From Xylona heveae TC161 (Eukaryota > Ascomycota > Xylonomycetes > Xylonales > Xylonaceae), in the NCBI RefSeq assembly GCF_001619985.1, contig NW_017264195.1, forward strand, positions 1,860,001 through 1,924,000: a stretch of 64,000 bases of DNA. Direction: 5' to 3'. The notes under the pieces were generated by a model that was not told the origin of the DNA, did no database searches, and was given only the letters and a program-made list of their open reading frames with translations. The translations under genes and the position numbers were made by a program. This document shows positions 12,825-39,153 of this stretch, in pieces. Position 1 is the first letter of the stretch; each line of letters starts with the position of its first letter.

Positions 12825-15800
12825 CTAAACAATTCCATAGACCCGCTTTGCAATGAAATAACAGGAAATACCAAACACGAGCAACGCTGCGGTGATGCTC
12901 CAGAACCAGTACAAATTCTCTATCTCCTGTCCAGGGACCATGACGTTCATGCCCCACATACCTGTAACAATGTTCATGGGGAGGACAATCGTTCCGAGGA
13001 CAGTGAGTTTGCCAAGAATGTCCGACGTTTGTTCTTGACGCTCATTCATGCGAATATTGATTTGAGCGAGGTAATTGGAGTGGGCACGGGAGAGGAGCCT
13101 AGATGAACGCAAATGTCGAGGTCAGCAGATGTCGTTGTGGGCTGAGAGTTGCCAAAGACAAAAGGTGACATGCATCATGGTAGATATGGAGAGCAAAAAG
13201 GGAACACTTACATTTCATAGTGCGTCAAATTTCCCGTCATGGTCACAATATGATCCTGTATATCGCCGAGATAGAGCCCAATCTCACTCCGGGGAGCCAC
13301 CTCCCATTGCTCATTACATCGTTTGGCAAACCCCTTGATAACATCTGCTTTATTACCCAAAAGACGATAAAGTCCCATGACCTTCTTTCGACAGTCGCCT
13401 ACTTGGCGAAGCATGTCTCCGCCCGAGACGCCCGAGGTGCTGTCCCCTGCTTCGGAGCGTTTTTCACTCGCCGCGACGTCTTTGAACTTTGAGACTGGCA
13501 GCTTACTCGAAGGAGTCATTTTTGCGGAGAGCTTTTCGTCGGGAGTATCGGGATTGTGCAATTGCAGGATGGCGTCGTCGATTTCGTCGACTTCTCGCTC
13601 AATGGATTGGATCAATGGAGCGAAAACGTCGGTAATATCGTCAATGATGGCGTACGAGATCCAATCCGAGCTGAGAATGAGGTAATCTTTGAGCTGACGG
13701 ATTCGCCGACGGACATTGGCCGGATGTGGGGTCATGGAGAAGTGAAACTGCAACTGTCAATTCCGATACTGATGAAATGAAGATTTTCGGTGGGTATGAA
13801 AGACTGTGGAAAGATTTTCGACAGACAGTAAAAGGGCAATAGATGGAAGACTGCACTTACGCTGATAACACCTTCTCTGAACACAATGACGTACATATTG
13901 ACGGGATTAAGGTAGTCATCGCTGCTCATGTCCTGCTCAAATGTGCGGTAATTGACAAAGTAGTAATGCCGAAACAACTCGACTTTTTCTCGGGCTTCCT
14001 GCATCATGATATCCTCTGCTGTCAAGGGATGGATGCCAAAGGTTTTGGAAATGACGCGCATCTCTGCGTCAGTCGGAGACAGAACGTCGAGCCAGAATGT
14101 CGGCCGCGCACCATATCGCTTAGGTTTGGTTTCCGGCGCTGGCGTGGGCTGCCCAGAAGAGTCACGGCCTTCTGGCTTCTGTTCCCCAAGAATGGACGAT
14201 TGTCGCGTAGTCGGTTTAGACAAGCTCGGCATCCGAGAGAGGTGGTCTTGATGGGAAGTTAGATCGTCATCTTCTTCATCTGACGAGGAGTCACTGAGCA
14301 GAGGCGGGTCCGGGATGAAGAGGTCCCTAAATGTCTGCCCAGGCTGGAGCAATTCAGAAATCGTCTGGCTGTGGACCGTGCTCTGAAACTCTTCGTTAAA
14401 GTAGGTAAATCGATACGGCTCGTCCTCTTGCTGTCGATGCCATGCGGACATTTGCGGGCGTAGTCGACCATCGACAAGCACCGGTTCGCTGATCTTCTTG
14501 GCGCGAATACCCTCACTGCGCTCTTCCTTTTCTTCCCGGCTCCACTCCTCGAGGACAGACAGATCGGGCCATTTTCGGCCGCGTCGTCTGCGCGTTGTTG
14601 GCGCGTACGGGAACCCCGGTTCTGGCGGAGTGTAGTCTTCCTCTGCAATCTCTGACATGCCCTCCATGGGGAAGCACACGTCGACTTCGCCTGGAACAGC
14701 GACCGTATGTCGACGTCTCTCAGGCGACTCGCCTCGGGGAGACGATGGATTTGACGGATGTGAGCCTGGGTAGCTATGGACAAGACTCTCATTTTCCATG
14801 TCTACGATAGCGTCCCGCGACAGCGGTCCAATACCGCGCTTGGACTCGGGAGATCGTGAATTGAAGTCGCCCGTCACCATGACATCGCCGTAGCCCATAT
14901 CCGTGCCCAGCTTGGGGCTGCTCGGTACCGAAGGAGGGTTGTTCACATCGTAATCCAAACCTGTAGAGGACGGGTGCTGTGGCAGTGTGCCGAGCCGTTT
15001 CCGCCGTCGACTTGAAGTTGATGTCGCAGCTGAGCCAGGCCGGTCCCGTGAAGCGGTTCTCGAGCGGGTAAAGAATCCGCCGTATCCATCCTTGGACGAC
15101 GGCCGGTCTTGCCCTGAAGCTATCAAGGGAGTTCGGTCGTCGACTGCAACGTCCTCGTCATCACTGCCCGAATATTGCTGCGATTGCCTCATGCGAGATG
15201 GCCGCTGACGAAAGGCCGAGCTGGAGGCACCATCCAGAGGACTTTGTATGGAAGGGCGAGGCATAGCGAAGCTTGAGAGAAGCGTACTTTGTCGTCGCGG
15301 GCGCATTGGCAGTTGGTCCCTAAAGCGACAGTCAGCATCTTCCCCACATCAGACCGTGTATCATCTCAAATGAGACCAAATTCCATATTGCTCCACGCTG
15401 CCTATATGGCTGAGGGCCCATTGGCGCAAAAGAAGCACTTACCTGTGATCCAAAAGCGCCTCGCTCTCCAAGCTTGTGCTGCTGGTATTCCCTGGTCCGC
15501 CCGACGATTGCCCCAATTTGTAAAACGATGGCCTCGCTGCAGTGGTATCGCGTGAAGTGAGCCGTTCCACTGTCGATGGTCTCGACGCTGAATTATCTTC
15601 GGGGCCAGTTTCATCTGGAGCGGGAGCAAACGACTGTCGCCGATTGCGTCTCTTCTTATGACCGCGTTGCCGGCGTTTCTTCTTTTGCGATGAGTGTCCT
15701 GACGGGTGATCGGATTGTTCTCCTATGGTTGGAAATGAAAGTTGCCCGCTGCCTTCTGCTACTTGCCGTTGTTGCTGCGCATTGGGGTTTCTGGACGAAT

Positions 15801-17080: not shown

Positions 17081-20000
17081 CTAAATCATGTTTCCGGAAT
17101 CAAAATTGATCGTTGGTGTGATGCTCTGCATGGACCGATTCGAGTGTTCAATCGACATACCATCGCCGCTCAGCATCCGAACAACCTTTTTCGCCTTGTT
17201 CGGCTTTGCAACCAGAACTTGAGCGCGGCATACCACAATCTCGTCCTCCCCAGATCCTGAATCATCCCCTTTCTTCACCACCAACGGAAACAGAACCATT
17301 CGCACAACCGCTCCCTCCGCCTCTAATGCTTCGTTGGAAAGCGTGTCGCCGCTGCGCTCATTCATCAAAGCAGCATTGAAATGCACCTTGCGTGCAAGGT
17401 CGCCGTTTGTGTCGTACTCGGGCTGCAATGGCGGCAACATAATGTATTCGGCCCGCTGAGTGCGCATTTCGATCGAGAGCTCAACAGCTGATCGCATCAC
17501 GTTGCGCAGCGACTCGATCACTTGTCGCTCAAGGTGTGCTGGAGGGGGGAGGAAAACTGATAGCGTGCTGTATATTTCCTGTACCACTGCCTCGGTATCT
17601 TGAGCACGCTGAGCGACAAAAGTCGGGCGTTTGGAAAGCAACGTCAATGTTGTTGCCCGCCACCGATGGACAGCTTTCGTTGGGCCTGGAGTGGATCCTT
17701 AGCAAATTTGATGTTCAATTAGAAATAAAAAAGAAGGGACTAAAACATACCGACTTCGGCTAGTGTCTTCTCCAGTGACTTCAACTTTTGTCGCTGCTCG
17801 CGGTCCATGCCGAAGAGGTAGCGTGTGAAGACGTACTCCCACACCATTGTCATCACAAGCGACATGAAAACATCTCGGCGCCGAACGCGATCAGAAAGAT
17901 AGATATCTACATCTGACCCATCCAGGATACAGTTGTCTAATCTGTCTGCAATCTTCTCGTCCATAACGTCCGCGGCAAGGCGTGACGGCCGCATGTCGGA
18001 GAACTTGGAGAACCTCAGAACCCATTGTTGAACATGCTGGCAGAGTTTCTGACATGCATTCTCAAAATAATCTTCATCTCGAGCTTCCAAGAATGTTTCG
18101 CTTGGCTTGGATGCCAGAATCTCCTTTTGTAGCGCCCTAACCTGCTCCCGAGCCTGATCGAGCTCCTGGTGAAGTTCTCGTAGCTGCGCATCTTTTTCTC
18201 CAAGGACGGCATTGAATTCCTGCTGCAATGCCTTCTCCCGTTCTTGAAATGCATGTTCATGTTGCTGCTTAAGTTCCTCAAGCTCCTTTGCTGAGTGAAG
18301 CCATTGCACATACGTTTTGTGGTGCTCGGTCTCCAGGTCACGGTAACGTCCCTCATGACCGGCCAGCAGGTCGCGGTTGGTCGAATTTAGATTGCCATTG
18401 ACCTCATTTAGTCGAATCACTTCCTGCTGGGCCTTGGCTAGAATTTCCTTGAGTTTGTTGATCTCCAGATCCTTGTCACGAAGTTGAAAGTCACGTGCCT
18501 GGACTGTTTCAGTCAAAGAGCGTGCATCTCGAGCTTGGCGGGCATTGACGTCTTCAAGCTCCTTGCGAGCGCGCGAGCGGGCATCTTCTAGCAAGCGATT
18601 TTCAGATGCAAGTTGATCGAGGCGGGTTTCCAAGTCCATGATTTGCATACTTTGTCGCCGACGCACAATGCTTGGTGGTCGCGACGGGGAGAGCGGGGAG
18701 CCTTGAATATGAGGATCGCCCCATCCCTCCTACAAATTCTCATCGGTTAGGATTCTCAATCTTCTGGATGACTCTGTCGCAGAAATCATCAAATTGCCAA
18801 AAATGGGGACTTACATAAACATCAGCCATGTCTCCGGCCCGACCTTTGCCTTTGTCCTTGACGGGATCGTAGCTGGATGACGATTCCAGCGGGTCGAGGT
18901 TCGCTTGTTGTGATTGCTGAGCCTCGGTTCCCACAAACAGTTTGGCTTCGTCTCGTTTGCTTGCGGCTCTTAAGTCTCCGCTTCGGCTACGATCGACGTG
19001 CCGCAGTGACGGCGTCGATGTACCCGATCGGTTGCTGAGTCCACTAACCGACCGGGCCACCCCCAATACTCCCCCTGACCCAATGCTGCGTATGCTCTGC
19101 GCACTTGTTGACCGTTGCTGCTGTCCCTCTGCCGCTCGTGCGCGTAGACCTTCATTGGAGAAACTTGACAAATTGCTCTGACGGCTAGAGGGCCGACTTC
19201 TTGCTCGACTCAGGCTTAGTGGGGCCTTCTGTTCCGCCTCTAGGCGCAAAAGTCGAGAAGTAAAATCGTCTGAAGAAATGCGGCCTTGGCCATCACCTAA
19301 TGTTCGGCGCGAGCCCGATCTTGAATCGCTCCTTTGAGAACCTGTAGGAGAGCCTAATGGGCTGGCTAGGCTTCGTTGATCTCCAATAAGTTCATCCCCA
19401 ATAGTACCTCCAAGCGTGGTTGTGGATTTGCTTCGTTTGCTCAGGGGCGATTCTTCAGGACTGGCCTCTCGGATCGTATTAAGCCGCGTCGCGCTCAAAG
19501 GTTTGGGGGGCGGGGTCTCCTTAGGAGACATCACCTGCGAACTCAAGTCGCTGTTGATGCCAATTGGTCCACCAAATAGAGATGGCCGTTGAATTTGCTG
19601 TATGTTCTTCTGACCATTAAGTGCAGCCAGGGCCATGGCGTGCTCGTGCGGAGTACTGTTATCATTGGGAACAACTTTGAAAGGATCGTCGACTCCTTGT
19701 CCAGATATTATCGGAAACAAATCTTGCCTTTCATGAGGATGGACTTCTCTCATCTCCGGTATTTGAGATGCATCATGGACCTCCGCTTCTGGGGCTTGCT
19801 GAGCTGGCTCGTTTGGAGGTGGGACAGGTGAAGCTTGAAATAGACCAGAGTCACGGTCTTTTGTCGTAGATTCCACCGGAGAAGGCTGAGAGAGATCCGC
19901 AGCTCCACTTTCCTGCGCGCTCGATGTCGTGGAACGGATAGGTCGAGTGTCAAGATAGTCACTAGTTTCAATGGAAATTTCTTGAGGGTTCAACTGTGAC

Positions 20001-23000
20001 TCCATTGATTGTGACGCGTCATCTTGTGCTGTCTGGGAATGCATTTTATCTCGCTGAGAGATATCAACGACGTAATCCGGACCAACATCTATAGAGGCCT
20101 TCAGGTGCTCGGGAGATGTATGTTCTGTTCGACCCATATCGAATGCCCCTGAGGCTGACGGAGGATCTTCATGCTCGTCAAATCTGCCTTCTGCCTGGTC
20201 TATCATGCGCGCCTCCGTTGTTGTATCTTCAGAGGGAATCTGTGGTTGGAGTTGTTCAAGAGTGTTTACTCCTTCGGCCAAGCAGCGGTCCTCAATTTTG
20301 GCCTCATTTGCTGCTTCCGAGTCTAACTGACCGAGGTTGGTAACTGAGTTTTCGGGAGCTTGCTCTTGAAGGCCATCGCCCGGAGACTGTTCACGGCTCG
20401 ACTTTGTCTCTATATCCTCTCCTTCTCTATTCGGGGCCGTTTCCGACTTGTTGGATCTTGAGAGGCCTTCGGTTGATGACGTTGTGGGCTCTTTCATCGG
20501 TAGCTGCTGAGGTTCGGAAGCATTGTCTAAAGTAGAGATGGTTTGCACGTCTGTAGCTGGAACCCTTTCTTGTCCGTGCTCGGCTTCCGTTTCTTCGAGA
20601 GAGGAGCGTTGCATAGCCGTCACATCCAGGTCTCTAGCTTGCTGGTCTGGAACCGCTGCAGTGGCGCCCCTCCACCGCGGCTGATTCGGGCTTAAGGGTC
20701 TTTGCGCTGCAACTATTTCCGGCTCATCGTGCAGCTCCTCTTTCTCAAGCGGAGATTCGTTTATTTTCTCGACAAGAGGCTTGCCTTCATTCCCAACTGG
20801 AGGGTTTGCACATTCATCCACTTCTTGATTAAGATCTTCGGGTAATGCGGAGTAGGTCTTATCGTGTGATAAACGCCCGTCTTCTTGAATTGGTCCTTCC
20901 AGTGATTCCTTCTGGCCCGAGGGCTGCTCGGCTTGGATTTGGGCACCACTCGTTTCTTGTCCAAGGCTAGTGCTCATCACGTGTGGTCCGCCAGTAACAA
21001 GATCCTGTTTTGCCTCTGTAACTAAAGCCTGCCTTTCTTCTGTCGCAAGACCTAGTTCATGTGGCGTTGGAACAGAGGCGTTGGCCTCTGACGGTGCCTC
21101 AGCAGCGTTTTCTGTCGTCGGCAAATGCTCAATACTCCTTGGCAGGCGCGGCTCGTTTTCATCAGGTATTGTTGGAGTAGCAGCGCCTGAATATTTTCCC
21201 TTCTTTTTCCTTTTGTTCTTCTTCTTTTTGCCTGACAATGGTTCTTCAACGGCTTCCTCTTCAACATCATTTGCAGGCCTCACGGTCTCGACGCCGGAAG
21301 AAGCTCCCTCATTTATTGTCTCTTTTCCGCCTTGAACGTTCCCCGCCCGCTCGGCCCCTTGTTCAACTTGCTGCAGTTCTAGAAGTATTTGATCATCACT
21401 GGAGATTGCCGGTCCTGACCCCAACTCGATTTGTTGCACATCTTCAGCAGGTATTTCCTTGTCCGATTGCCCTGCTTTAGAGACGATTTCGGCCAAGGTT
21501 TCTTGAGATATAGATGGCTCAGTATCGACTTCTACTGTATGGCTGTCGGACGAAACTTGTGGCACCTCAACGGCAAGTGCTTCCCTTCCAAATTCTGCGG
21601 ACTCGGGCTTTCCTTCAAATTCTGTTGGAGAGGGATGCTCCGAGCTCAGCAGGCGTTGCTCCGTCGCTGTCTCTCCCTCCAATTCAACCGCAAATTTATC
21701 CTCAATTTGGGATTCTCTCTCGGCAAATTCCTCCTGATTCGCGCGCTCCGATTCAATCCGGCGAGCGTCCTTTCTCCTCTGCTTCTTGCTCCTCTTTTTT
21801 TCAGAAATGGTTCGAGGTTCATCTTCAGAGAGCATAACAGGCGCAGGGAGAGTTTCCTCATTGAGTGCCTCGCTTTCAGGTTGCTGTATAGTAGGTGATT
21901 CGCGCGGTAAGAGCTCTTCGATGGTCCTCTGTCTTGGGTTATCATCTTTTTCAGGCTGAGGAATGATTGACTCCGGTCCCAGCACTGGTTCCTCTCGGAC
22001 CTCTTCCGTCGAAGCCTCTGCTTCAGCTGGCATGTCTTGCAAGGACTTCTCATCAGATTGTGGCTCATCAGAATAGTGCTGCTGCATTGAAGTTGCATTG
22101 GCTTCCGCCTGGAGCTTAATCTCTTCGTCAAGCTGACTTTGGATTCCTCCTTTCTGCTGCTCTTCTACCTGTGACCCATCTTGTCTGGGCTCTTCCTGCA
22201 TCTCAAGACCGTCCCCCACGTGACCCTCCTGGCCCTCAGCTGATAATTTGGCAATGCGAGCAGCCTCCCTCTTCTTTTGTTTTTTGTTCTTCTTTTTGGA
22301 ACCAGCCCTGGATAGACTAGGTGAGTCCTCTCTCAGAAGGGAGCTGGGGGTGCCAGGACTGTCGACTAGCTCTTGGGGTTCCTGAATTTCCATCACTTGG
22401 GTCATTTTTCTGTCAGCATCTGGTTCGCCAGTAAACTGCTCAGGAAGTGGTGGCTGTTCAGTTGGATGCTCATTAGAGGAACGATCTTCTTCGCCTAAAA
22501 AATCATTTCCGGCGTCTTCCTCGTGCTTGAGAAGGAGGTTCTCTTTGGCCGGAGTCTCAGCTAAATTGTCTTTGTCGGCGCTTGCTTCTGCAGGCGCAGT
22601 CTCTCCAACTGGCTGTGCTTTCTTTTCTTGTTCTTCCCCCTTGAATTCTTGAATTTCAATATCTTCCCGCTGAGGTGGTGCCTCTTGAGGCGGAAGGTCT
22701 CCGACAGTTAATCCTGCGAGACTAGCAGCTTCCTTCTCCTTCTTCTTCTGCTTCTTGCTTTTCTTTTTCGTCTTGCTGCTAAAGACGCCGATTGGCCCAT
22801 CGTCAGTTAGCACGGGAGGTACTTCGGGAACCGCTTCCGGGCTGATTTCGGAGCGAATTGCCTTGTCTCGTGCCGTTTCTTCTTCCGATCGCTGTGCAGC
22901 AGTTGTCGAGTCATCAGGAATCTCTTCCGCGACAAATTCCTCTGCGGGAAGGGGTACATTTTCAGGCGCAGCGGCTGGCGCATTTTCTTCGTAAGTTTCT

Positions 23001-26000
23001 TCGTGTTCCTGCAAAGGCGTTGCCTCTTCTGAGAAGTTCTTTTCCAAGGGGTCGGAGTTTTCGACGGAAGCTTGCTCGACGGAAATCTCCAGTGGGCCTT
23101 GTCGTTCACCTGAAGTAAAAGGAGGGTCGATGCTCGAGCCTGGTCCGGCATTGGCTGCTTCCGGAGAAGTTTGTTCCTGAGGCTCCTCTGTCATGGGCCT
23201 AGCAGCGGGTTCTGCCTCGTATGTCTCAACTTGATTTGCATCTGCTACAAACCCAGATTCGATATGCCCTGTAGCTGGCTCGAATTGGCCTTTTTCCTTC
23301 TCTTCCTGCTGCTCATCGACTTGAGCTCGACCACGCGTGAGAGTATTGGAAGCATCCCCGATCTCTTCAGTTGGGACGACGTCAGTATGCTCCACTTCTC
23401 GCGCCGAAAGTTCTTGGAGCGGTGCACCTGCTGTAGTATCTTCGTTCTCATCGGTAAAATCTTGCGCAATTTCAGGCTTATTAACATCTTTGGGATTTTG
23501 TTGTGCCGTTTCTCTCATCGATTCAGAATCAACATGTGTTGTCTCTGCATTTTCAGAGACCCCCATTTGCTCTACGGGTGTAGTAAATCCTGAATTTCCC
23601 GTTGAGATTTGTTCAGACTCAACCTCTGCTGCTGCTGCTGCTGCTGCTGCCCGTTGCTTCTTAGCTTTCTTTTTCTTATTCTTCTTCCCCTTCCCGGCAG
23701 AAACGGTCTCCATCTCTTGCTCAGTTTCTTGCGTAGCATCCCCTTCGGCGTTTTCATCCGTTGGCTGTCCTTGCCTTGGCTCTTCCCTGGTTTCTTGTGA
23801 AGCTGGCTTGACCGGCTCTTGTTCGGCTTGACTTTGCGGCTCGTTTACTTCCAAAGGGCTGCCAGACGGTTCAGTTGGTTCCATTGGAGGTGTACCCTGC
23901 CCTGATCCTTGTAATATCGGCGATTCGACAACTCCAGTTCCTCCCTCAACCAAAGCATCTTCCCCTTTCGTTGTTTCTTCTGGAGGCCTCGGGAAGCCTT
24001 CCTCGGGTACAGGTTCCGATGCCCGGGTCTCAGATTGTTCGACTGGGAAGAGCTTTACGAGAGTTTCTTCCAAATTGGCAGGTTCTGGTGCAATTGCAAT
24101 GGGCAGGGAACGCTCAACTTCTTCAGTAGGTGTGGCTAGTGCCGACGAATCATGCGAGAGAGAGACACGCTCGGCATCGGTAGCCTGGGCTTGCTTCTTT
24201 TTCGCCTTTTTGGCCTTCTTTTTATTCTTCTTCTTGGTCGAAGCCGTAAGATCACCTTCCTCTGAATTGACTTCCTCACTCTTTACGTTGAAAGAAGGTT
24301 CCTCAATTGAGATCCTTGCAGCAGGATCGGTGACTGCAACGGGCTCTTCGGAATGAGAGTCTCCGCCAATTCGCGCTTCCTCTTCGAAGACTGCCCGCTT
24401 GTCTTCAGATTCATTCTGTGTGAGAATAGGCAATTGTAGAACCGGACTCCGATTGAGATCTTCCGCGCCTTCTAAGTTACTAACATCAAATCCATCATCC
24501 TCAGAGGGCAGTGGGATCGAAGCAGCTTCAATAAAAGAATCATGCTCCGATATGGCCATCGGATCATCATGAATCGTCCCATCTCCTTCTCCTTTGGGGG
24601 TTGTAGGTAGAAGTGAAGCACCAGCAGGAGATGAGCTCCTTGAAATCTCTTCCGCTCGATCGATAAGAGGGATTTCTTGTAGTTCTTTCTCATGCTTCAA
24701 ATCTAGACCATTCGGCTTCTCCGCAGGTGGTGGTAATGCGAGGTCTTCATTAAGATCATTTTCACTGGGCAGAGAAAGTGGCACTAGTCCAGGAAAGGGT
24801 ACTTGAAGCGCCTCTACGCTTAATCTCTCTGCAGTCTCCGGGCCCGTGCTCTCTTCTACAGGTATTGTACTAGACTCGAGTTTTCCCAAGGTCTGTTTGT
24901 CTTCTGGTTTCTCAGTTTTCCGCTGGAGCTCCACGGCATCACCCTCCAGGAAAGGCGTGCTTTCGGCTGCAGGTAGCGGCTGGTCTTCCTTTGAAGCAGT
25001 ATCCTCGAGCAATAATAAATCCTTGTCAGCAGTCGTTGGTAAAGGGATGTTTTCTGGCCGCTCATCCGGGAGCGCGTTGGTAGATTTGTCATATAAAGGA
25101 TGGTCAGCATTAATATCCTCCGTTTCGTTAGGCGAAGACACTTCTGCCGTAGCCGAATTTGTTGGAGAGTGGGCGATAGAAGATGCTGCAGGTGAAGCCA
25201 CACGGGGCACGTCTTCGGCCCTTTCTCCTTCTTTAATCTCAGCAAAGTTTTTCTCAGGAGGGCTTGTTATTTTGCCGTATTCAACAATTGGAGATTCAAG
25301 AGGATATTCCGCATTCCTTTCCGGCGGGAGAACTTGTTCACGAGTGACACTGGTATCCCATGTGACATGATCCGACGGCAGATTTTTTTCGTTCAATGAC
25401 TCCTTAGCTTGGGAATATTCGACATGTTCGGGGTCTGCCAGGGGCTCGCCAGTCGAATGCAACTTCTCGTGTTCTTGTATAATTGAACTTGGATCGTTTG
25501 TCAATTCCGCTATGTGCATTTGTGCAGGGGTTAGCTCAGAAGCACTCGGATCTTGTGAATTTTCAAGGTCGAAGTGGTCAGTAAATTCGTGGGACACTGG
25601 AATAGGACTTTCGTTTCGCTCTCCTGGCATTTCTGACAGCGGCTCGTTCGAAGCATCCTTATGAGGATCGTCCTTATGAGGGGTCACAGGGCCCTCTCTA
25701 GGGGTTGCCTCTGACGTTTCTGTTACTGCAGAGCGTTCGATGTCAAATTTTGAATCGTCTCTTTCAAGGAAAGGCATTGGCACGGTGGCAACTGATGTTG
25801 GAGCTTCTCCTTGGCCCAAGCTTTCAATCATTTCGGCTGGTTGGGGCAATGGATCTCGGTCAAGCCGCGTCTCTTCAACATCTTCTGGAAGCGGAATGGA
25901 TTCAGGAGCAGGAGATTTCGTCTTTTCCACCGTTTGATCTGTAGTGAGCACAACCTCAGGGCGTTGGTCAACATGGGATTCATCGAAACTGTCGTTGGGT

Positions 26001-29000
26001 ATTGACACTACTGACTCCGGAAATACAGGTTCGCTCTCGAGAACGGGCTTAGTAGATGTAGCTACTGGTGATTGCTCCTCTGTGGGAATTGCGTATAGCA
26101 TCTCTTTCTCTGGATGTTGAGATGCTGAATGGGGGAGACTAGTATCCACCGTTGCGGGTGGAACTTCCGAGTGGCCAGTGAGCTTCTCACGCTCGTCTTC
26201 AACTTGTGCAGGCTCAAGCTCTAGGTCTTCGTTTTGTGTTGCAGGGAGGGGAACATTTTCCGGACGAACTTCTTCTCCAAGCATCCGATTTTGATCGGCA
26301 TACTCATCGTTTGGCACATCAGATACTGCAACATGCTCTTCTGCATGGGCAATCTCTGCGGGCTCGACTTCAGTCTTCGGTTTGGGTACGTCGTGCTTAT
26401 GCTCTTCTTCCAGGGCCCCCTCGTCCACGGTATCTGCGATTTCCTTTTCTATTATAGGAGTACTCGGGGCGCTTGGGCTCGCAGATGCTTCAGAAACCTC
26501 TTGAAGATCCTTCTTCGCCTTCTTCTTCTTTTTCTTGTTCTTTTTCGATGAAGAGGTGGCAGACATATTGGCTTCAGAAAACGGCACCTCATCTGAAACA
26601 GTCGGCTGTTCCAATTTCAAAGTTTCGGATTTTGGCTCTGCGGGTCCTTTTGTCGGTGTCTCAGACCTTGCTTCCAGACCTTCTGGTTGGAGCGACTTGG
26701 TAAGCTCGGTGGTAAATTTTTGTTCTTGCGACGTCCCAACGGCTGTCTCAACTTCCGCTTCTTTCTTATCAAGGTCTTCTTGAGCTTTTTCTGAGAGCTC
26801 CTCAGATTTCGCTTGAGATTTCTTCTTCTTTTGACGATCTTTCTTCTTCTTCTTACGTGATGAAGAAGAGTCTATCTCTTCTTCGTTCACTACTTCGACC
26901 CTTTCTGGAGCTTCTTGGGGTGCTTCGGGAGATCCGGCCGAACCTGCTGGCCTTTTGACATCGCTATCAGCTTCCAAATTTACAGTCTGCTCTTCACTCG
27001 ATAGGATCTGTTCAGCTTCGCCGCCAGAGATCGGCCCTTCAAGTTGACTTAGTTCCGCAATCGATGGCGATGTGCTTGGGACAGAAGGGCCTGGTCTCTG
27101 AGGAAAATCAACATCAACGGCATCCGGGTCTTCTATCCCATCCTTAGGTAAATCCGCGTCGACTCCCTCAGAAAGCTCTTGAATAGCTTGAGGCGTGAAC
27201 TTTTCTTCCTGAGACTCGGCAACTTGATCTTCATGGGGAGCTTCTTCGATCGGCTCCCTTACGCTTTCCGCCCCCTCAACTGAAGTCAGTAGCTTGTGGG
27301 TGGTCGCATTAGCGGCTTCTTCCTCGAGTAATGGCTGTTGTTCTTCACCCTGAAGTTCCTTAGGTTGTCCTTGTCCAGAGAGCTCTGCTGTCGAATCTTC
27401 AATACCAACTTCTGCGCCTCTCTGATACCCTTTATAATCCGGCATGTCACTGGGTTCGCCTTCGACCAGTTCTGCAACATCAACTTTGTCTTCAGCAGGA
27501 GCATCAGCAACCGTGGCAGTAAGGGCGCGTTCCTCGGCCTGAGCCTTCATTTTCTGCTTCTTTTTGGCCTTCTTAGATTTGGATCTGTTAAGCTTGGCAT
27601 CGGAAGCCGGTTCAGCCGGCGCTTCGAAAGGCTGCTCTTGGATCTCATTGGCATCTACCTCCGACTTTCCCGATTGCAGTGAATTGAGTTCCACTTCTTT
27701 CATTGCAGCGGCTTCTGGGACGCTTTTCGGATCTAGAACTGACGGATCTCCAACAATGCCAACCGTCGCTTCTTTTGGTTGCTCGGCCGTCTCAGGCTCA
27801 GTGAATGTCGCAATCTCATCAAGCGCAGGACCAGTTTCTTGACCAAGATCTTCCACTTGGGGCTGTTCTACAACAGCCCCACCCTCCGGCTCATGCGCCG
27901 ACCCTATCTTTTGTACTTCGCGTTCCTGAAACTCAATATTCCCTGCGGAATCAGTGACCTGCACACGCTCATCGGGGCTTTGTCCATCCTCTTCAGTAAA
28001 TCTTTTAATATCCAGAGGTCGATCATCCTTTAGCTCTAATGCGTCGACATGCTCTCCCGGGTCGGGTATGGGACTTTGCAGTTCGGGTGTCTGTGCTTGC
28101 GTTGAACTAGTGGAAGCTCCCTTCTTCTTCTTTTTGTTCTTGCTCTTTTTGGATTTCTTTGAAGTTGAAGAAGGTTGTTGCTCGGTTTGATCCACCACAT
28201 TCACAATTTTAGGATCGTCTTCAGGAGTTTCTGCTTCTAATTCTCGAGCAGTTTCCGAATCGTGTGGTGGGGATGAGGTGCTTTCCTCAGATAAGCCTTC
28301 CCTAGCTGAGACTCTGTCTTCAGGAGTACTTTCCCGGAGATTAAGGGGAACGTTGCCTTCTTTATCCTCGGCCAAATAAGTCTGTGCTGTCTCTTCTCTC
28401 GAATCTGCACTGGTGTGATCGAAGGGCACCTCAGGTAAATTTGGCTGAAAATTCTGCCGGGGCTCACCAGTCGAAACAGGTGGAGTGGTTTCCGCCGGCG
28501 ACAGACCATCCGAACCTCCGGGCAGAGCCTGAGGTTCGGGGTTGGATTCCCAGTCATGGTCCGGAAATATTTCTCTAGCGCTGTGGACAAGCCGATCTGG
28601 TGCAACGTCAGGCGGGGCCTGCAGTGATGAGTCTTGATCTGGCCGCGCTTCAACTTGACTGGCCTGTGCCGTTGTAAGTTCATGTCCTTGCGTGGCAATT
28701 TCTGGCTGCACAATGGGCGTCTGGGCTCTGGGCGTAGATGCTTCAGAATTTGCTATATCTCGATCTTCAGGAGCCTGTTCCAGAGGAGTCGCGACATCCT
28801 TTTCACTTGAATCCTCGACAGTTTGGTGGTGTGGTTCTTCCCAGCTATGTTCATATCTCCTAAGGGCATCGTGGATAGAGGTGCTTCGAGAGGAGGTTCG
28901 ACTCGATGGGAGGGATGGGTAGGTTTCTGTCGGTTCGTCTTCAGCTCTATAACTATTGCGCTCGACCAAATAGAGCGGGCGAAACTCGTCAGTAGAGGTC

Positions 29001-32000
29001 TTGAATTCTGTTGAACCCGGCCGAGTGTGTCGAGACCGTGTAGGTGATAACTGTTCAGTCTGTGAAGGTGTAGGGGATGTCGGAGCTAGATTGGTTCTTG
29101 TCAAACCAGGTGACGGTGGCCCTTTTCTAAAGGAAAAATGAAGTGGGATTGCAGTGGGCGATGCCGCGCTTCTCGTCGAGCCTGGTACTTGAATACGTTC
29201 TGGCGTTTTCGCTGGGAGCTTCAACCGATCGTTCGAATTGGGAGACGTGGGCCGATGCTCGGTGGTGGGAGATAGATCAGCAGCTTGTTGCATTTCAATG
29301 GGCGTAGTAGGACGGCTTTCAGACGAGAATGGCAGCTCTTTTGCCTGATCTATTTCAGTTGGCGAGTATGACTGGGTTGTTAACAGCTGTGGAAGATCCT
29401 TCGTGTGCTCAGCTTCAATGGGAGAAGCTGATCGAGTATCCGGCAGATCTGGCAGGTCGGCAGTATGTCCGACTTCGATGGGAGAAGTAGGGCTACTGTT
29501 AGGTAAGGAAGGTAGGTCCTCTGGATGCCCGACCTCTATGGGTGAAGTTGGTCTAGTACCTGGCAGTGACGGCAGATCGCTCCGGTGTCCAACTTCAATT
29601 GGAGAAGTGGGGACAGTTGGAGGAAGACTTGGCAGATCTGTAGCAGATCCCACAGCTATAGGAGAGTTTGGTCTGCTTTGTGGCAAAGCGGGAAGGTCAC
29701 TCGCACGTCCAACCTCGACGGGAGACGTTGAACGGGTGGCAGGCAAAGATGGCAGATCGCACGTATGTCCTACCTCAATTGGAGAGGTGGGGTTGCTCTC
29801 AGGCAAATATGGAAGGTCCTTGACGCTTCCAACGTCGATTGGGGATGTCGGACGACTAGCAGGAAGTGAAGGGAGGTCCTTCACACTGCCAACCGCTATG
29901 GGAGATGTGCTCCTGCTCGCAGGTAAAGAAGGGAAGATTTGTTCCTCTTCACGTTGCGCGTCCGCAACTAATGCGGTTTGGATTTCTCTGCTAGGAGAGG
30001 ATGCGGGTGGAGGCTGTCCTCCTTCAGCGACTTGGTGTGGCAATGTTTCAGGGAGGGCTTCATGGTCTACTGGGGTAGAGGTCGGCTGTGGTACAGGCTC
30101 ATCTTCAGAATAGAGGGCAAGAGATTGATCTACGACAGGGGCAGGTGACGACGCAAGGCTACCTGGCAAGGAAGGAAGTTCGTTGACATCAATGTCTGAA
30201 AATTTTCCTTTATTCATCCCTCCTAGCGGCAATTCAGCGCCTAGAGGATTTTGTTCCTGGAATAATGTTAGCGATGTGCCTATGCGATAACGGAAGATCC
30301 GAGGAAAAGGAGGCTGTCTAAATACCTTGGAAGCCTGCTTTTGGGAGGTGGTCGTACCTGTACCTATGTCGCTACTATGGCGGTGCTTTTTCTTCTTCTT
30401 CTTTTTCCCACTGGCACTGCTTGACTCCCGGCTTTCCTCTTCAAGGGAGGGCTTCTGGCTCAACTCGGGAAGACTGGTCGCGGAGCGGGCGGCATCATCA
30501 CCAATATCGTAGGGATCACGGCCAATTTCTTCTTCTTTTGATCCCCGCTTGCTCTTTGGCTTCAACTCCTCGCTACGGATTTCTCGTGATCGTTCGAGAG
30601 CGGGCAGCGAGTCCACTGAGCGCCTTCCAGTGAGGAAAGAGAAAAGCCCCCCCCTCTTCTCCCGTTTACTGCCCTTGTCATCATCTAGTCTTGCCGGTAA
30701 CGATGTGACAGAAGCGAGATCATTGTAATCTAAACTTGAGCGCTTCGATTTTCGCTTGGACCCGTGAGAGTCATCATGACCCCTGTGTTCCGTTTCAGAC
30801 ATTGACATTGACCGAGTAAGTGGTTTCGGTGAGCCGAAGACGTCGCTTGATCGTCGTGAGCGTCTCTTTCTATGTGTCCGTTCGCTGCTCTCTTCAAGAT
30901 TTGAGCCACGCGACCTGGAGCGATGTACGGATGCTGAGGAATCCGGCCTCTCACTAGCTCTGGAAGATCTACTTCCGTCCAGTCTTGATTCATCCTCCAT
31001 CTTGCCACGAGAGCGGCTACGATGGGAACTCCGCTTCCGTGGTTTCGAAAGCTCCTCATCACTCCACCCATAAAACTTGTCCTCTTCCGGAGCCTCGAAA
31101 GGTTGGTCTTGCGCTTCTCCCCACGACGAAAAAGATCCTCGTCTCTTAAATACTGCACTAGCAACGTCCGCCTCGGGCTCTCTTACAGTGGAGCCTGAGA
31201 GCTCTTCAGCGTCCTCGTCGAGTTCGTGAGGCAACGGCACTTGCGCTGTAAACTCGGTATCATCAACAACAGCGTCTCGCACCAGGTCATTAGGCTCCCC
31301 GGCGTCTTGCTCGCTGCCAGACGAATCATCTCGAAATGCAAGTTCCGATCTTAGCGGAGAGCCAGGAACTCTATGCCCGAAACGGCTACTAGCTCTCTTG
31401 GTCTTCCTGGGCCGCTTCACGTCCGCCAATTCTTCCACATCGTCAAATGCATTGCTAGGAATGGAGACGATAGATTGCGAACCGCTGCTCCGAGGGTTGA
31501 CACCAATGTCAGAGCTACTAGATCTCCGAGTCCCTATTTGCATGTCAAAGCCTGGGGTATCATCGAACCTTTCGTTCGAGCGTCCCAACTCTCTAGGGCT
31601 CGAATCTTGTGATCTTGAGCGCTGCGATTTAGCTGTTTGAGTTTCAGGGCCCCAGCTACGGCGTCTTAGGCTTGTCGAGCCTTTCGAATTTGATGGCGGC
31701 TTTCCAACTTCTGAACGAGTTTCGTAAACAGGGGAATCACTAATTTGTGCCTCGAATTCTTGAGCGTTTCTATTTCGATGTCTTTGAGCTTTCTCGTTCT
31801 CAAAGATTTGAGACTCGATACCGGGTTCGAAAGCGCCTTTGTCCGATGAAGTGGACACGTCCGGCCTTATTTCGCGAACTTTACGCTCAGGATCCGAAGA
31901 ATCACGATCCGAGTCACGATCAAATTCATCCCCCTCCCTCTCAGCTCCAAGCTGCCGCGCAGATGAGCCGGCTCTTTCTTCCTCGGTTGGAGAGGGGGAT

Positions 32001-35000
32001 CGCGAAATTTCTTTGGGATGCATCTTGGTTTCTACAGGGGTGACGGTGCCAGGTGTTTCCACCTCTCCCTCAACATAACCGACTCTTGGCGGAGCTCCTT
32101 CAGTACCTGGAGAGTCAAGGCCAAGGTCTGTCACAGTCTCCGCGTAAGGAGCATGGTAGAACCGAAAGTCATGCGATGCTGGGGGGGATTTGCGGTGTCT
32201 AAAATTATTGTCATCAATGACGATAGCAGGATCGAACCCGCTATCTTCTAGTCCAGCAGCAACAGTTGCAGCAAATTCAACATCTTCGCCGAAAGCTCCG
32301 GGGACGTGTTGAGGAAGGTCGCCAGAAGAAGACGATTCTGGTACTGGATGGCTTTCATACTCGTGTGCATGAATTTCAGGGCTCTCGTCCGTAGACTGGT
32401 TAGATGAATGTCCATGGTAATCGCCATCATCCTTCTGCGGTTCCTCCTCCGAGGATTCTACAATGTATTCTTTCGTCTGTAGATCTCCCCAGCTGACCCT
32501 GGATTCCGATGACTTCTCAGGACCAGTTGAACTGTTTGGTTTCGTCTCTACTGGAGAGATAGGCGCTGATCTGTCATCCCTCGTTGAACCGATGGTGCTC
32601 GGAGGAGGAGAAGGTTCGATCAAATTCAACCTAGGGACAATCCAAGGCAAAGCGCCGTAGGGATAGCTTCCAGCAAATTGGGCATGTTGTAACGCATCGT
32701 TGTCATTTTCATGATCGACAGGGGGAGCTATGGTTACAATCTGCGGCACCCGAGATGAAGTAACATTGGAGTCGCCGTTTGGATCAGGGGATTGAGGAGA
32801 GTCTGACTTCCTAGACAGCAGCTCCGGCGGTGCGAAATATGCTGCCACTGGTTGTGGCTCCTCATTGTACTTATCCATGACTGAATCTACGTAAGCTTGC
32901 GCTTCGCGATCCGAGAGTGGGTGATAATCCGGAACGTAATCCCCTGGATGACGGCTTGAACGAGCGTATTCGCTCCTAGGCGATTCGCCTTCAGGGGATG
33001 CTTCGGGTCTGAATTGTTCAAGTTCCACCTGCGGTTGCCCATGGCTCCTGGAGTCGGATGAGGACTCGTTTTCTTTTGATGAAACGAATGGGCCAGGGTT
33101 TGAAGGAGCTGCATTCACTGAAACAGGAGTATCAGAGCTCGAGTGCCGTGGTTCATTCTGCCTGCCGGGACGAATCTCCACAATCTGAGGGTTTCCATCA
33201 TCCAAAGGGGCTGCAAATACCTCATTTGTCCTTGTCGTTGCACTGCTCTGCCTCCGTCCCTGCGATTTCTCATTATTTTGGAAGCGTTGCAGAGAAGGCT
33301 TTCTGCTTTCCGGTTTTACCCTTCTTGGCTGAAAGTCGCTATAAGAAGCGACTCCTGCCCGTTGTCCGGAGGCCAGATCTCTGTCTGTGGATCCAAACGT
33401 AGGCGACGAAGCTCGTCTACGTCGAGTTGTTGGAACTTTGACTTCCTGATCGTTTTCAACAGGAACAGAGTCTTGTACCAGGTATTGAAATGGGTCAACC
33501 GGCGTTCTTCGCTCTCGATTTTCTGTGCCGGTCGCTCGATATTCGACGTATGGTTTCCTGTGAATAGTTGGCGCAGTCGTTGCAGACTCTGGTGCTTCAT
33601 ATGTAGAGCCCTGCAAAGTGGATTCAACGAAATTGGACAGCTTTTCTGGTGCGACAGCTACAATTGGCTGAGTATGCTGGATTGGTACAGGCTCGGGGCG
33701 CGCGCTTCGGTTCACTGTTTGAGAAGAGATAACTGAGTCGCTCCGCCTAACATCGAATCTCGATGGATCCGAAGTTGGAACAGGTACCACATATTGCATA
33801 TCTGGCACTCTTGCATTATAACTGGGTACAGCACCCTGACGATAATTGAGAGGTGGAGCCGTTGGCGAATTTGCACTGTCCCGAAGTTCGATCGGACCCG
33901 CTTTTGGAGGACGTTGGGCAGGACGGTCAACAGATGCAGAAGAAGGCGTCCGTCTTTTACCACCAAACATCCACTTCCAATTTGAAATTCCAGACCGCTC
34001 TGAATCAGAAGACTTCCGATGGCGACGAGGCCCGTTACTACCGGAATCCGAGGCCCCACCGAATGCAAGAGCCGAGCTGACGCTGGAGGATTCCGCCTCG
34101 GACACGGATTCCCATGCGTCATCCGACGAAGACAATTGACTGCCTTTCCGAGGAACGTCACCGCGAGTATCTGCTTTGTTCTTCTTTCCTCGCTTAGAGA
34201 GCACTGAAGCTGCAGCTACGCCGAGCCCAATCATTGCAGCATCATCATTAAACGCTTTGTTAGCATGACGTGGGCCTTGTCTCGAACTTTTTGAAAGTCC
34301 GCCACCATATGCCAGACCCATGTCTGCTGAGGAAGAAGACGCCGAGGACGATGATGATGAATTTCCAAAATTGAAGAAACTTTTTGATTTTCTGGAGCGC
34401 CCTGGGCGCGAGAAGGGTTTAGTGACCGATCCTTCAACGATTCCTGCAGCTTGGGACTTCTTAAGATACTTTGAATCCGGCGTGGGAGATCGATGACGCC
34501 TGTTTCGAGAGGCTTTGGAGCTTGCAAGGCCAAACAAAGACGCAAGACCAGACATACGGGAAGGGCTTTGGCGGTTTGATCGCACGTACTCTCGGCGCGA
34601 TGTGGGATAAGAGGAATCATTGCTGTCGAAGGCTCCGGGAACCGAGGGAGGAAAGTCTGCAGCAACGCCGGACTGCAAAACTCTATTTCTCCGATCTGGG
34701 GACCTGCTCCGTGAGCGATGTCTCTGAGGGGAGTTACTACCGATAGGGGCATAAAAACCATAGGATTGGGATGAATCCCGCCTTGGCTGAGACCCATAGC
34801 GGCTGTCACTGGAGGGAAATGCTGCAGACTCTGTTCTCTTTCCTGATCTCACACTATAAGTATCCTCAAAACCCCGCTTTTGCTTTGCAAAAGTCTGACT
34901 CGCTTGGCCGAGCCCATAACCAGCAAGTCCAGCGGCCAGAGAAGATTTTTTCCCCCTCCGTGATTGTTCGCTATCGGATAATCCGTAACGCCTCTCTTTG

Positions 35001-36778
35001 TCCACCTTTCCGCGGCTCCCAGGCCGATCATTGGATTTCCGTCTGCGGTAGTGATGCTTGCGTGGAGCATCTCTGGCAGTTGTTCCAGGCTCAAAACAAT
35101 CTTTGCATACACCGATGTATTCGGTATATTCCTCATACTGCGCAACTCCCTCCCTGTCCTTCCAGAACTCTACAAACTTTTCCAACGGCCCCTTTCGCCG
35201 AGTCTGCAATGCCATTGCGCCATGGCTATAGCCGTTCAATGCGACATTTCCAGAACCGGCAGACCCTGCCATTCCAAGAGCGGTACTGCCATAAATCGGC
35301 GTAGTAGCCGCGTATGAAAGCTGTCCCGGCCGCGGAGGTTTTGAAGGACGTTGAGCGTCCGGGACGGAATAGACAGGTTGTGATTGCGATGGCTGCGAGG
35401 TCGAGGTATAGCCGGCGGCGTTCATCCCAGACTGAGAGTTACCGTGACTGTGTGATGAATGATGGCCCAGATAGTACCCTGTGGCCGCTCCAGCCGCCGC
35501 GGCGCCTAGGGTGGGGATCGCGGGTGCGGATGACGAATGATGGACAGTAGGACTGGCACCAGGTGGGGCAGAGGAGACTGTGGAATACATATTTGGCGGC
35601 GCTGGCCCTTGAGAATAGGAAACTTCGTCGTTGAATGAACTGCTCCCAGCGTGATGGCTAGCAGAATGCGCAAGGTTGGATGCGGCATATCCGGCGCTCC
35701 CTGTCAGAGCGGCTGCTGCGCTGCCAGACATACTCGGAGGGGTCGGTTTGGATGGCCTTGTCGGCCTGTTGCTTGACGATACTGGCGTTGAAGACGTTGG
35801 CCGCAAGCTTTGAAGATTGGCGCCGTCATTGAAAAAATCTGCTGCAGCACCGACCCCTCCCAGAGCGGATGGTTCTATAGGCGGCGCACTCAACGGGGAT
35901 GCCGCCTGAAGGTGAGGCTGGGCGCCAACAATGAGTGAGGGCGGCTGTGGTCTCACACCAGGCTGCTCAGCAACAGATTCTCCATGATCACCATAGTAAT
36001 CAGCCGCAAGACCTGGTCCACCTTCGGCGAAACTGAGCGGCGGTCGATAGGGCGCGGCATATTGAGCGGGGTCTTGTCCAGGAAATTGGTCGGTTATATG
36101 CGATGATAATTGTGAATACGTATGTGTACTTGGAGCTGGAATGCTCTGTTGAGCAGGCGACGAGGTCACCGCTGGTTCCTCGTACGCAGTCATGTATTCG
36201 TAGCCCGCTGCATTAGGTGCGCGGCTCTCGGCATAGTCAATGCTGCTCATACCGCGTTCCCTGTCATCCTCTCCTAGCCCTCTTTTAAGTCTATCTCGGC
36301 TCTGCCACTGCAACTCCTGTATTCGAGCCGGACTTCTTGAACGTTCACGTCGATGCTGTCTCCGCTCGCGGCTTGGAGAACGCTCCGAGCGCCGTCCGCT
36401 CTTGGCACTTCTTACTGCATAATAAGATCCACCGCGAGACTCAATTCGCGACGTATTCTTCGAGAGGCCAGAAGAGGACCTGTCGCGTCGGGTCTCTCGG
36501 TCAACACGATTGCTCGGAGCGGTTGCGTAAGAGGCAATTGATGGAGATTCTGGCGAATAATAGCTAGATCGCGATCGTGGGACAGTGGCAGAGGCTGATC
36601 GACTATGGCCGCGATCATCACTGCGAGATGGTTTATATGCAGAGGGCGAGGAGACAACGGATCCGGAGCGATGTCTCGAGGATGAATGTGTCGAACGCTT
36701 GCCGACTTGCGAGATCTCTTCGTCCCGGTCGCGCAATGACCTACTTGAGGGAGACCTTCCTAGCAATCGACTCCACAT
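17081..36778 (-). CDS. lah: Leashin (Woronin body tether; 'involucrin repeat protein'), predicted 6492 aa
   Basis: Four exons on the minus strand: 30326-36778, 18815-30256, 17751-18729 and 17081-17685. The introns (69, 85 and 65 nt) are all canonical; the first keeps the frame open. Leashin links Woronin bodies, the peroxisome-derived plugs of septal pores, to the cell cortex and septum. Order of parts: a Ser/Arg-rich N-terminus from MWSRLLGRSPSS; a conserved segment near residues 530-660 with C-K-D-C-F-E and GTTARDAPRKHHYRRRK; a long disordered Ser/Pro/Glu region; a 12 x 20-residue repeat array at about 2258-2497; an acidic linker with eleven lysine-rich blocks at about 2120-5160; then SPSRPPSIVRRRQSMQIMD, a coiled coil at about 5995-6175, and a globular C-terminal domain (QKLCQHVQQWVLRFSKFSD ... 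AVHRWRATTLTLLSKRP). From family knowledge, the N-terminal part binds the Woronin body side and the C-terminal part anchors at the septal pore or cortex. The length is above what I recall for Aspergillus leashins (5000-5700 residues). Confidence 0.9.
23626..23649 (-). repeat. In-frame CAG/CTG tract coding poly-Ala in leashin
   Basis: A run of eight GCA codons (CTG on the + strand) codes the alanine run after a lysine block (KKQRAAAAAAAAEVES). It is a trinucleotide repeat likely to vary in length between strains. Confidence 0.8.
29219..29938 (-). repeat. Leashin 20-residue repeat array (12 units of 60 bp)
   Basis: Twelve tandem 60-bp units code for the consensus DLPSLPxxRPTSPIEVGxxx. The first reads IFPSLPASRSTSPIAVGSVK. 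The central eight are well kept; the last three drift (ELPFSSESRPTTPIEMQQAA, then DLSPTTEHRPTSPNSNDRLK). The S/T-P pairs are possible proline-directed phosphorylation sites. Period and frame are exact with no indels. Confidence 0.9.
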
Positions 36779-38134: not shown

Positions 38135-39153
38135 TCAACTGGGCACGCCCATCAGTTGTTGTCGTAGCTGCATGATCTGAGCACGTTCAAGAGGAGGCAA
38201 TGCCTGGAGTTGATCTGGCGTCATTGACAAAACCTGCTGTATCAAAGCCTTCTGCTCAGGTGGAAATGCGGCTAGAGCAGGTGGGGGTGGCGGAAACGCC
38301 TGATTTTGCAAGGGCGGAGTAGCGACCTGTGCTGGACCAGACACCGGCGGGAAAGGCGAATAGCTTTGGGGAAAAGGCTGAAACTGCTGGGCTCCAGGAA
38401 ACTGAGGCACAGGCGGTGGGGGCGGGAACTGAGCAGCTTGAACAGGTTGGGGGGTAGACTGCTGCGCTGGAGGCTGCTCCACAACTGATGCAAGTGCTTG
38501 CGTATCCACAAGGCCCATGAGAAGTAGAGCTTGGAAAATGGCGTAGCTCAACTGGGGTGCCTGTTTAAGTAGCTCCGTCGCCTTGGTAGGATCGGCCATG
38601 ACAAGTGACTTCATCTGAGTGAGAATGTCCAGTAGCTGAGTCGGCGGAAGCGTTGAAAGAGTTCTCGAAATAGCATCAGGGCAAGTGAGGTTCGGTGCGA
38701 GATCTACTCCAGGCGGTAGTGGGGGAAGGATGGCGGTCTGTGGAGGAGGCGGGGGAGGTCCGGATAGACTCGCACCGTTGGGGATTGGTGGGAATTGAGG
38801 AGTATATCCTGCGGGAGCCGCATCGTCATCCTGTCCATCCGGCCGTGAAAAGTCCACCCTCAACTTGCGACCCATTATTTCGTAGTCATTGAGGTTGCGA
38901 ACGGCCGAAGCGGCGGCATCCGCGTCGGAGAACTCGGCGAATCCAAAGCCTTTTGGCTGGCCGGTGTCTTTGTCATGAATCAATCTGAATCCCAAGACCT
39001 GACCGACAGTGCTGAATGTATGAATGATTTGTTCCTCGCTCAACCCTTTCAAAGTTAGTGCTCAGTGTAGAGAAGACATTCAAATGTCGAATTACCATAT
39101 GGTATGTTGCCAATAAAGATGACCCTTCCGGCCTTTTCTTTATCAAGAGGCAT
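38135..39153 (-). CDS. Cleavage stimulation factor subunit CstF-64 / Rna15 homologue, 322 aa
   Basis: Two exons, 39096-39153 and 38135-39045, flank a 50-nt intron whose branch motif (CACTAAC) sits very close to its AAAG acceptor. The protein starts MPLDKEKAGRVIFIGNIPYG. An N-terminal RRM at residues 11-90 has RNP2 (VIFIGNIPY) and RNP1 (KGFGFAEF). A hinge at about 135-200 (CPDAISRTLSTLPPTQLLDI) is the region that binds CstF-77/Rna14 in this family. A Pro/Gln-rich linker follows, and the C-terminal three-helix domain closes the protein (MTPDQLQALPPLERAQIMQL). In fungi this is Rna15 of cleavage factor IA, which recognises U/GU-rich or A-rich elements near poly(A) sites in the nucleus. It is shorter than animal CstF-64 and lacks the MEARA repeats. 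It is divergent from prohibitin-2. Confidence 0.92.

Follow-up and report, generated by a model that had tools for sequence, protein, structure and literature searches.

The leashin gene of Xylona heveae TC161 is predicted to encode a 6,492-residue protein, from four exons separated by three introns, and the linker of this protein is more ordered than either the first-pass annotation of the DNA or the literature covered here describes. The gene lies in a 64,000-nucleotide stretch (contig NW_017264195.1, positions 1,860,001 to 1,924,000; hereafter "the window," whose numbering we use throughout), on the minus strand, with its ATG at 36778 and its stop codon at 17083 to 17081. Leashin (Lah) is the giant tether that keeps Woronin bodies, the organelles that plug wounds, beside the septal pores; the gene is in this respect known ground, and it is the anatomy of the linker that is new. 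Our overall reading, which we hold with considerable confidence, is that the gene would encode a single-polypeptide leashin of the ancestral type of the Pezizomycotina, that the disordered, sticker-bearing linker would act as a soft spring, and that an array of 20-residue repeats within it is probably a kinase target enlarged in this lineage. 

Both ends of the protein identify it as a leashin

The first-pass annotation had recognized the gene as encoding the Woronin-body tether from its two conserved ends, and searches with each end confirm this. With the N-terminal 700 residues as the query, 165 of 913 candidates scored reached an E value of ≤0.001, and the 120 of these that were listed, many of them lichen or metagenome gene models, are the relatives referred to below. 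The C-terminal exon, used as an independent query, matched 914 of 1,246 candidate proteins, and the 120 that were listed are 70 to 80% identical over the query stretch. The C-terminal exon matches leashins, and the unrelated C-terminus that the first-pass annotation had considered as a contrary outcome was not found. The first 900 residues are matched by 116 of the 120 relatives, a count that is not independent since the set was gathered by the N-terminal region, and the last 760 residues by 112. The last-domain stretch is included in 55 of the relatives, many models stopping at an exon end, and 54 carry both it and the first 300 residues in one predicted protein.

The C-terminal domain has a single match in its own genome. 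The segment that marks LahC in Aspergillus fumigatus is found 243 residues before the C-terminal end here. The corresponding distance is 242 residues in three of four Aspergillus relatives and 247 in the other, and in Paecilomyces it is 231. The same genome contains a gene (G000 C5:1843292-1843492; locus L005, open reading frame [ORF] 721 to 1725, plus strand) for HEX, the Woronin-body core protein. Its predicted product ends in the peroxisomal signal SRL and matches the solved Woronin body major protein with an E value of 5.7e-94, which supports the presence of Woronin bodies in X. heveae. Because the N-terminus, the C-terminus, the position of the LahC segment, and HEX all agree, it is not in doubt that the gene is a leashin ortholog, whose function would be that established in other species. 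Some of the Aspergillus N-terminal matches are named "involucrin repeat protein," which is the name of AFUA_2G08060, a protein described as a Woronin-body tether (PMC8227032).

The following parts of a leashin are present: the N-terminal region, a long acidic linker, a coiled coil, and the C-terminal pore-rim domain that it precedes. Aspergillus Lah (AFUA_2G08060 in A. fumigatus) has these parts in the same order. The nearest named relative is the leashin of Pycnora praestabilis (P0001), which is 68% identical over 536 C-terminal columns.

The gene is read in one frame through two very large exons

A stop-free run of 6,012 codons extends from 36778 to 18743, in comparison with a maximum of 220 codons when the same DNA was shuffled 100 times, and two short exons lie downstream of it. 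Exon 1 (30326 to 36778; 6,453 nt) encodes residues 1 to 2151 and starts with MWSRLLGR, where relatives start with MWNRILGK or MWSRLTGK. Exon 2 (18815 to 30256; 11,442 nt) encodes residues 2152 to 5965. After an intron of 85 nt (18814 to 18730), exon 3 (17751 to 18729; 979 nt) encodes the coiled coil and the first half of the C-terminal domain, and after a further intron of 65 nt (17750 to 17686), exon 4 (17081 to 17685; 605 nt) encodes its second half and the stop codon. The span of 17081 to 36778, the length of 6,492 residues, and the maintenance of the frame throughout therefore stand as they were first annotated, given the 6,012-codon run and the three introns. The two largest exons, which had been credited with 94% of the coding sequence, contain 91.9% of it.

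The putative intron 1 (30257 to 30325; 69 nt), which separates the exons of 6.5 and 11.4 kb, is in frame and free of stop codons and has the form GTATTT...CTAAC...CAG. It is the sole in-frame candidate with a donor, branch-point, and acceptor pattern in the 18-kb run, although the test was not blind because the donor pattern had been loosened so that GTATTT would pass. Its translation contains 10 residues of the FYWILVM class among 23, and 0.05% of linker windows have as many; when simple hydropathy is used instead, 4% of linker windows are more hydrophobic. We favor the reading in which it is spliced, given that no other in-frame candidate turned up in the 18 kb and that the translation is FYWILVM-rich for the linker. 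The frame is kept in either case, and without this splice the predicted protein would have 6,515 residues. Six of the seven newly found introns of Neurospora lah are likewise in frame (PMC2690989).

Conserved blocks and a mid-linker island

Han 2014, to judge by its title, reportedly treats the linker as nonconserved. In order to locate conserved sequence, the protein was tiled and each tile was searched against the 120 relatives. An N-terminal block at residues ~150 to 400 (35579 to 36331, minus strand, as are all features of the gene) is matched in all 120 by the tiles 151 to 300, 201 to 350, and 251 to 400. A CxxC block (GPLEKFVEFW...VCKDCFEP) at residues ~450 to 700 (34679 to 35431) is matched by three tiles in 119 to 120 relatives, and the best tiles of further blocks at residues ~900 to 1100 and ~1250 to 1650 (together 31829 to 34081) match 104 and 117. 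Beyond these, an island (STEFKTSTDEFRPLYLVER...YPSLPSS) lies in the middle of the linker (residues ~2501 to 2640; 28790 to 29209). The tiles that detect it span residues ~2450 to 2700, and residues 2501 to 2650 are matched by 113 of the 120 relatives, including four Aspergillus leashins at 45 to 52% identity and that of P. praestabilis. Words of the form FRPL[WYF]LVE occur in 41 relatives.

Published work calls the linker poorly conserved (PMC2690989), and the first-pass annotation took the middle of the protein to be almost entirely lineage-specific repeats. This holds for the 12-copy array described below, although even the core motif of the array recurs in relatives, but not for the blocks up to residue ~1650, the island, or the lysine-rich clusters, of which at least three occur in the linker of every one of the 120 relatives.

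The extra length of the protein is local

Fifty-two relatives are complete from start to end, with a median length of 5,865 residues and a range of 4,663 to 6,862, and 15 of them are longer than the X. heveae protein. Published leashin lengths range from 5,936 residues (A. nidulans) to 7,480 (G. zeae) (PMC2690989). Based on these two comparisons, 6,492 residues is not an exceptional length. It had been suggested that the protein is longer than Aspergillus leashins, possibly with an expanded linker and a changed reach, and it is indeed longer than all four Aspergillus models (5556, 5634, 5845, and 6123 residues). The expansion is restricted to one segment: residues 1401 to 2501 make up 1,100 residues here versus a median of 576 (range, 457 to 931) in 111 relatives, none of which is longer, while residues 2501 to 5861 make up an ordinary 3,360 residues versus a median of 3,311, with 49 of 105 relatives longer. 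The extra length is in the segment that holds the 20-residue array. By textbook estimates of random-coil size, a linker longer by 14% would have its reach increased by ~8% (from 71 to 77 nm), so that any change in reach would be a small effect.

A 12-copy array of Ser/Thr-Pro repeats

Just before the island are 12 tandem repeats of 20 residues (residues 2258 to 2497; 29219 to 29938) with the consensus DLPSLPASRPTSPIEVGHAK, in the pattern DLPSLPxSRPTSPIEVGxxx. The register is exact at 20 residues, and the autocorrelation is 0.57 at this lag, whereas apart from multiples of 20 no lag exceeds 0.21. All 12 copies have Ser/Thr-Pro at repeat positions 12 and 13, and eight have Arg three residues before the Ser/Thr. 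The DYRK kinase consensus is RPx(S/T)P (PMC3325943), and five copies of the array fit it, which makes them candidate targets. The protein contains six RPx(S/T)P sites, of which five are within the array, versus a mean of 0.7 (maximum, 5) in 300 local shuffles; relatives contain 0 to 6, with a median of 1. In A. fumigatus, the DYRK kinase YakA alters Lah phosphorylation and is needed for LahC to be at the pore under low iron (PMC11166925). A link between YakA and the array motif is one that we infer.

A profile of the repeat unit detects one or two copies in 22 of the 120 relatives at 8 bits, with none in shuffled controls, and one to five copies in 24 at 5 bits. P0001, P0003, and P0011 have at least one copy ~90 to 110 residues before the FRPL island, and P0001 (P. 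praestabilis) differs from X. heveae in having two profile matches; A. fischeri and A. thermomutatus have none. No chain of more than two copies at 18- to 22-residue spacing was found in the 120 relatives, versus a chain of nine here by the same strict criteria. With the strict pattern, 29 of the relatives contain the core (D/E)LPxLPxSRxxSP, which is present four to six times in P0005, P0006 (Hypocenomyce scalaris), P0010, and P0018. These four share the form (D/E)LPPLPxSRxxSP, with copies scattered over ~320 to 520 residues, several of them 33 residues apart, and without a 20-residue array. For P0005, P0006, and P0010, the FRPL position has been located, and the majority of copies come after the island, while in X. 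heveae they lie before it at 20-residue spacing. The simplest reading of these sequences is that one short motif has been multiplied separately in different leashins, and such recurrence is a better argument for function than one array by itself. The 18 R1 repeats of Neurospora, with the core LPVDEDLDLLPALPES (PMC2690989), resemble DLPSLPAS by eye alone.

An antisense open frame of 254 residues (29349 to 30113, plus strand) runs across the array and in all likelihood merely reflects its 60-nt periodicity.

Lysine-rich clusters in an acidic chain

The linker is mostly acidic, with a net charge of -360 over residues 2641 to 5640. Within it are 11 lysine-rich clusters (21194 to 30406, converted from residue numbers), of which KKKNKKKAKKAKKK is an example. 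In order from the N-terminus, they are at 30406 to 30380, 28159 to 28121, 27586 to 27545, 26857 to 26819, 26545 to 26510, 24235 to 24194, 23692 to 23651, 22774 to 22733, 22297 to 22268, 21799 to 21758, and 21229 to 21194. Two hundred shuffles of residues 1901 to 5700 gave at most one cluster. Ten of the clusters hold 88 of the 184 lysines of residues 2641 to 5640 in 130 residues. Whole proteins from 108 relatives have 5 to 39 clusters, with a median of 18; there are 14 in the linker of A. fischeri and 21 in P. praestabilis, where, in a difference from X. heveae, they are flanked by aromatic residues. None of the papers listed by our literature search for such clusters mentions leashin, which is weak evidence only that they are unreported; Han 2014 could describe them.

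The C-terminal anchor may be a soluble domain

The C-terminal part of the protein was interpreted with structure models built on alignments of 50 and 66 of the 120 listed C-terminal proteins. The coiled coil can be placed approximately at 18112 to 18624, mapped from predicted helix 45 to 213 of P0130, which is 67% identical to the X. heveae protein over 527 columns. The pore-rim domain follows at approximately 17195 to 18078, a span placed by homology and the models that contains the intron at 17750 to 17686. It includes the conserved segment (17809 to 17874; VFMSLVMTMVWEYVFTRYLF here) that Leonhardt and colleagues mapped as transmembrane in A. fumigatus Lah (PMC5345055). We consider it an even choice whether this anchor spans a membrane, with a domain outside, or folds as a soluble domain docked onto proteins of the pore rim.

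For the soluble alternative, a model of the domain of a relative, without most of the coil (P0173 aligned with 65 others), has a predicted local distance difference test score (pLDDT) of 87.5 and a predicted template modeling score (pTM) of 0.78. In this model, the putative transmembrane helix (pLDDT of 94 to 96) and the supposed outside part form one continuous, confidently predicted stretch. The segment itself is weakly hydrophobic: in the 105 of 120 relatives in which it was matched, the Trp is always followed by an acidic residue, 104 have an Arg, and in 103 the longest stretch without charge spans 11 residues, while in X. heveae the best 19-residue hydropathy within the segment is 1.16, below that of two other windows of the protein. 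The supposed outside part has no more than one Cys in 85 of 108 relatives. In favor of membrane spanning, however, A. fumigatus LahCTM pellets with membranes and has an endoplasmic reticulum-like appearance, and two V-to-E changes abolish its septal targeting (PMC5345055), although a buried helix would fit the latter result as well. The helix is also not amphipathic (moment, 0.05), and a glycosylation sequon is found in the supposed outside part of this protein and of 90 among 108 relatives. An AlphaFold model does not settle topology, and no solved-fold match was found for the domain model.

Two C-terminal-domain proteins (P0181 and P0202; 499 and 366 residues) were found in one species, Mytilinidion resinicola, and are possibly a duplicate of the leashin C-terminal domain.

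Other explanations for the linker and the gene

The clusters and repeats of the linker could instead be neutral low-complexity sequence without function, which we consider unlikely but worth weighing seriously. The linker does drift fast, with no tile in residues 2601 to 5500 matching at least 5 of the 120 relatives; slippage is able to create runs of lysine or Ser-Pro; and the 20-residue array is found only in this protein, the strict core motif being absent from 91 of the 120 relatives. Against neutrality, units 2 to 8 of the array differ by 0.176, 0.171, and 0.689 at the first, second, and third codon positions, so that the array looks old and selected, with silent sites near saturation while the protein has been held. 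The core motif has been multiplied separately in at least four relatives. The codons of the clusters are mixed (69 AAG and 29 AAA), with no perfect codon run above four. Among the relatives, clusters are concentrated in the linker, at 4.83 per 1,000 residues versus 0.76 in the first 1,500 residues and 1.02 in the last 700, and W is enriched 12-fold overall in their flanks (in 116 of 120 proteins), where acidic residues are also found. The shuffles used above preserve composition, not evolution.

It is improbable that the main job of the protein is that of a hyphal-tip scaffold, instead of or alongside Woronin-body tethering. Such a role is known for Neurospora LAH-2, which depends on SPZ-1 and MYO-5 to be at the Spitzenkörper and which COT-1 and GPI-1 require at that site (PMC7275032), and the LAH-2 C-terminus is conserved with that of Lah (PMC5345055). 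In X. heveae, however, the same gene carries the N-terminal half of a leashin, and HEX is present in the genome.

Least likely is that the locus gives rise to two proteins through an internal promoter and alternative splicing, as is known for LAH-1 and LAH-2 in Neurospora (PMC2690989), since the frame is continuous through the linker, the sole in-frame intron candidate keeps it whether spliced or retained, the 54 relatives noted above have both ends in a single predicted protein, and the split of the locus has been placed in the Neurospora/Sordaria group (PMC2690989). The Neurospora proteins share with the X. heveae protein an acidic linker with LP-rich repeats, the conserved C-terminus of LAH-2, and several in-frame introns (PMC2690989, PMC5345055). 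They differ in that the locus is split into two transcription units and has acquired a new cortex-binding end, while the X. heveae locus, with N-terminus, linker, coiled coil, and pore-rim domain within one gene, is best read as encoding one polypeptide.

Neighboring genes and other observations

Among the ORFs scanned, the gene upstream of the leashin gene encodes CSTF2, a cleavage stimulation factor (38135 to 39061, minus strand), and the gene downstream encodes a CorA-like transporter (13732 to 15348, minus strand). Some lichen leashin models carry malic-enzyme domains (PF00390 and PF03949 in P0006, P0060, and P0104; PF03949 in P0107), probably through fusion of an adjacent gene during gene prediction; none of the ten window ORFs scanned has a malic-enzyme match. 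A genome-wide association study of resistance to triazoles includes single-nucleotide polymorphisms in AFUA_2G08060 of A. fumigatus (PMC8227032).

A regulated spring as a model for the leashin linker

On the reading of the gene as a single-polypeptide leashin with a soft linker, and by analogy with published work in other species, the N-terminus would grip the Woronin body and the C-terminal domain would fix leashin at the septal pore rim, with the coiled coil perhaps pairing molecules. Between these ends, the disordered acidic chain would carry spaced lysine clusters that could stick to acidic stretches of the same or neighboring chains or, alternatively, to acidic membrane. A linker of this kind would be a soft spring, its tightness sensitive to salt, ATP, and phosphorylation, and not a passive string. 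Next to the island, the 12-copy Ser/Thr-Pro array would be a multisite kinase target that has been enlarged in this lineage. A comparison has been drawn with the PEVK region of titin, likewise a long, charged, proline-rich disordered chain that is proposed to be elastic (PMC2690989). We claim no homology, and the X. heveae linker differs in segregating its charge into an acidic background and short basic clusters.

Several points weigh against this reading. As many as six RPx(S/T)P sites are found in some relatives and as many as five in shuffled sequence. When the island alone was used to query a large database, no protein was recovered, so that its conservation is shown within the leashins already collected. 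Unlike those of most relatives, the clusters of X. heveae lack aromatic flanks, with no W and one F in 143 flank residues, and the random-coil sizes are textbook estimates. Neurospora LAH-1 is stated not to be homologous to Lah as it occurs in most other Ascomycetes (PMC5345055), and the named relatives include no Sordariomycete, the comparison with LAH-1 and LAH-2 coming from papers only.

A stronger form of the model, which we put forward as speculation and consider improbable, treats the linker as an electrostatic spring whose setting a kinase can dial. The array, as a DYRK/Yak1-type target, would set how tightly the linker folds, and as long as ATP and phosphorylation are high the linker would stay loose; wounding would lower ATP, and the linker, collapsing as a result, would pull the Woronin body into the pore. 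The dial would have been turned up separately by lineage, to 12 copies at 20-residue spacing here and to 4 to 6 looser copies elsewhere. In Zymoseptoria, ATP depletion sends Woronin bodies into pores, and contraction of Lah has been speculated upon but is unproven; how Woronin bodies move into the pore is described as unknown (PMC5656841, PMC5745230).

What the reading of leashin as a soft spring offers is a set of ordered linker elements that are shared among leashins, namely, the island, the lysine clusters, and the multiplied Ser/Thr-Pro motif, and with these the question of whether the leash is an active spring becomes testable. An array of likely phosphorylation sites together with lysine patches could explain how the leash is regulated.

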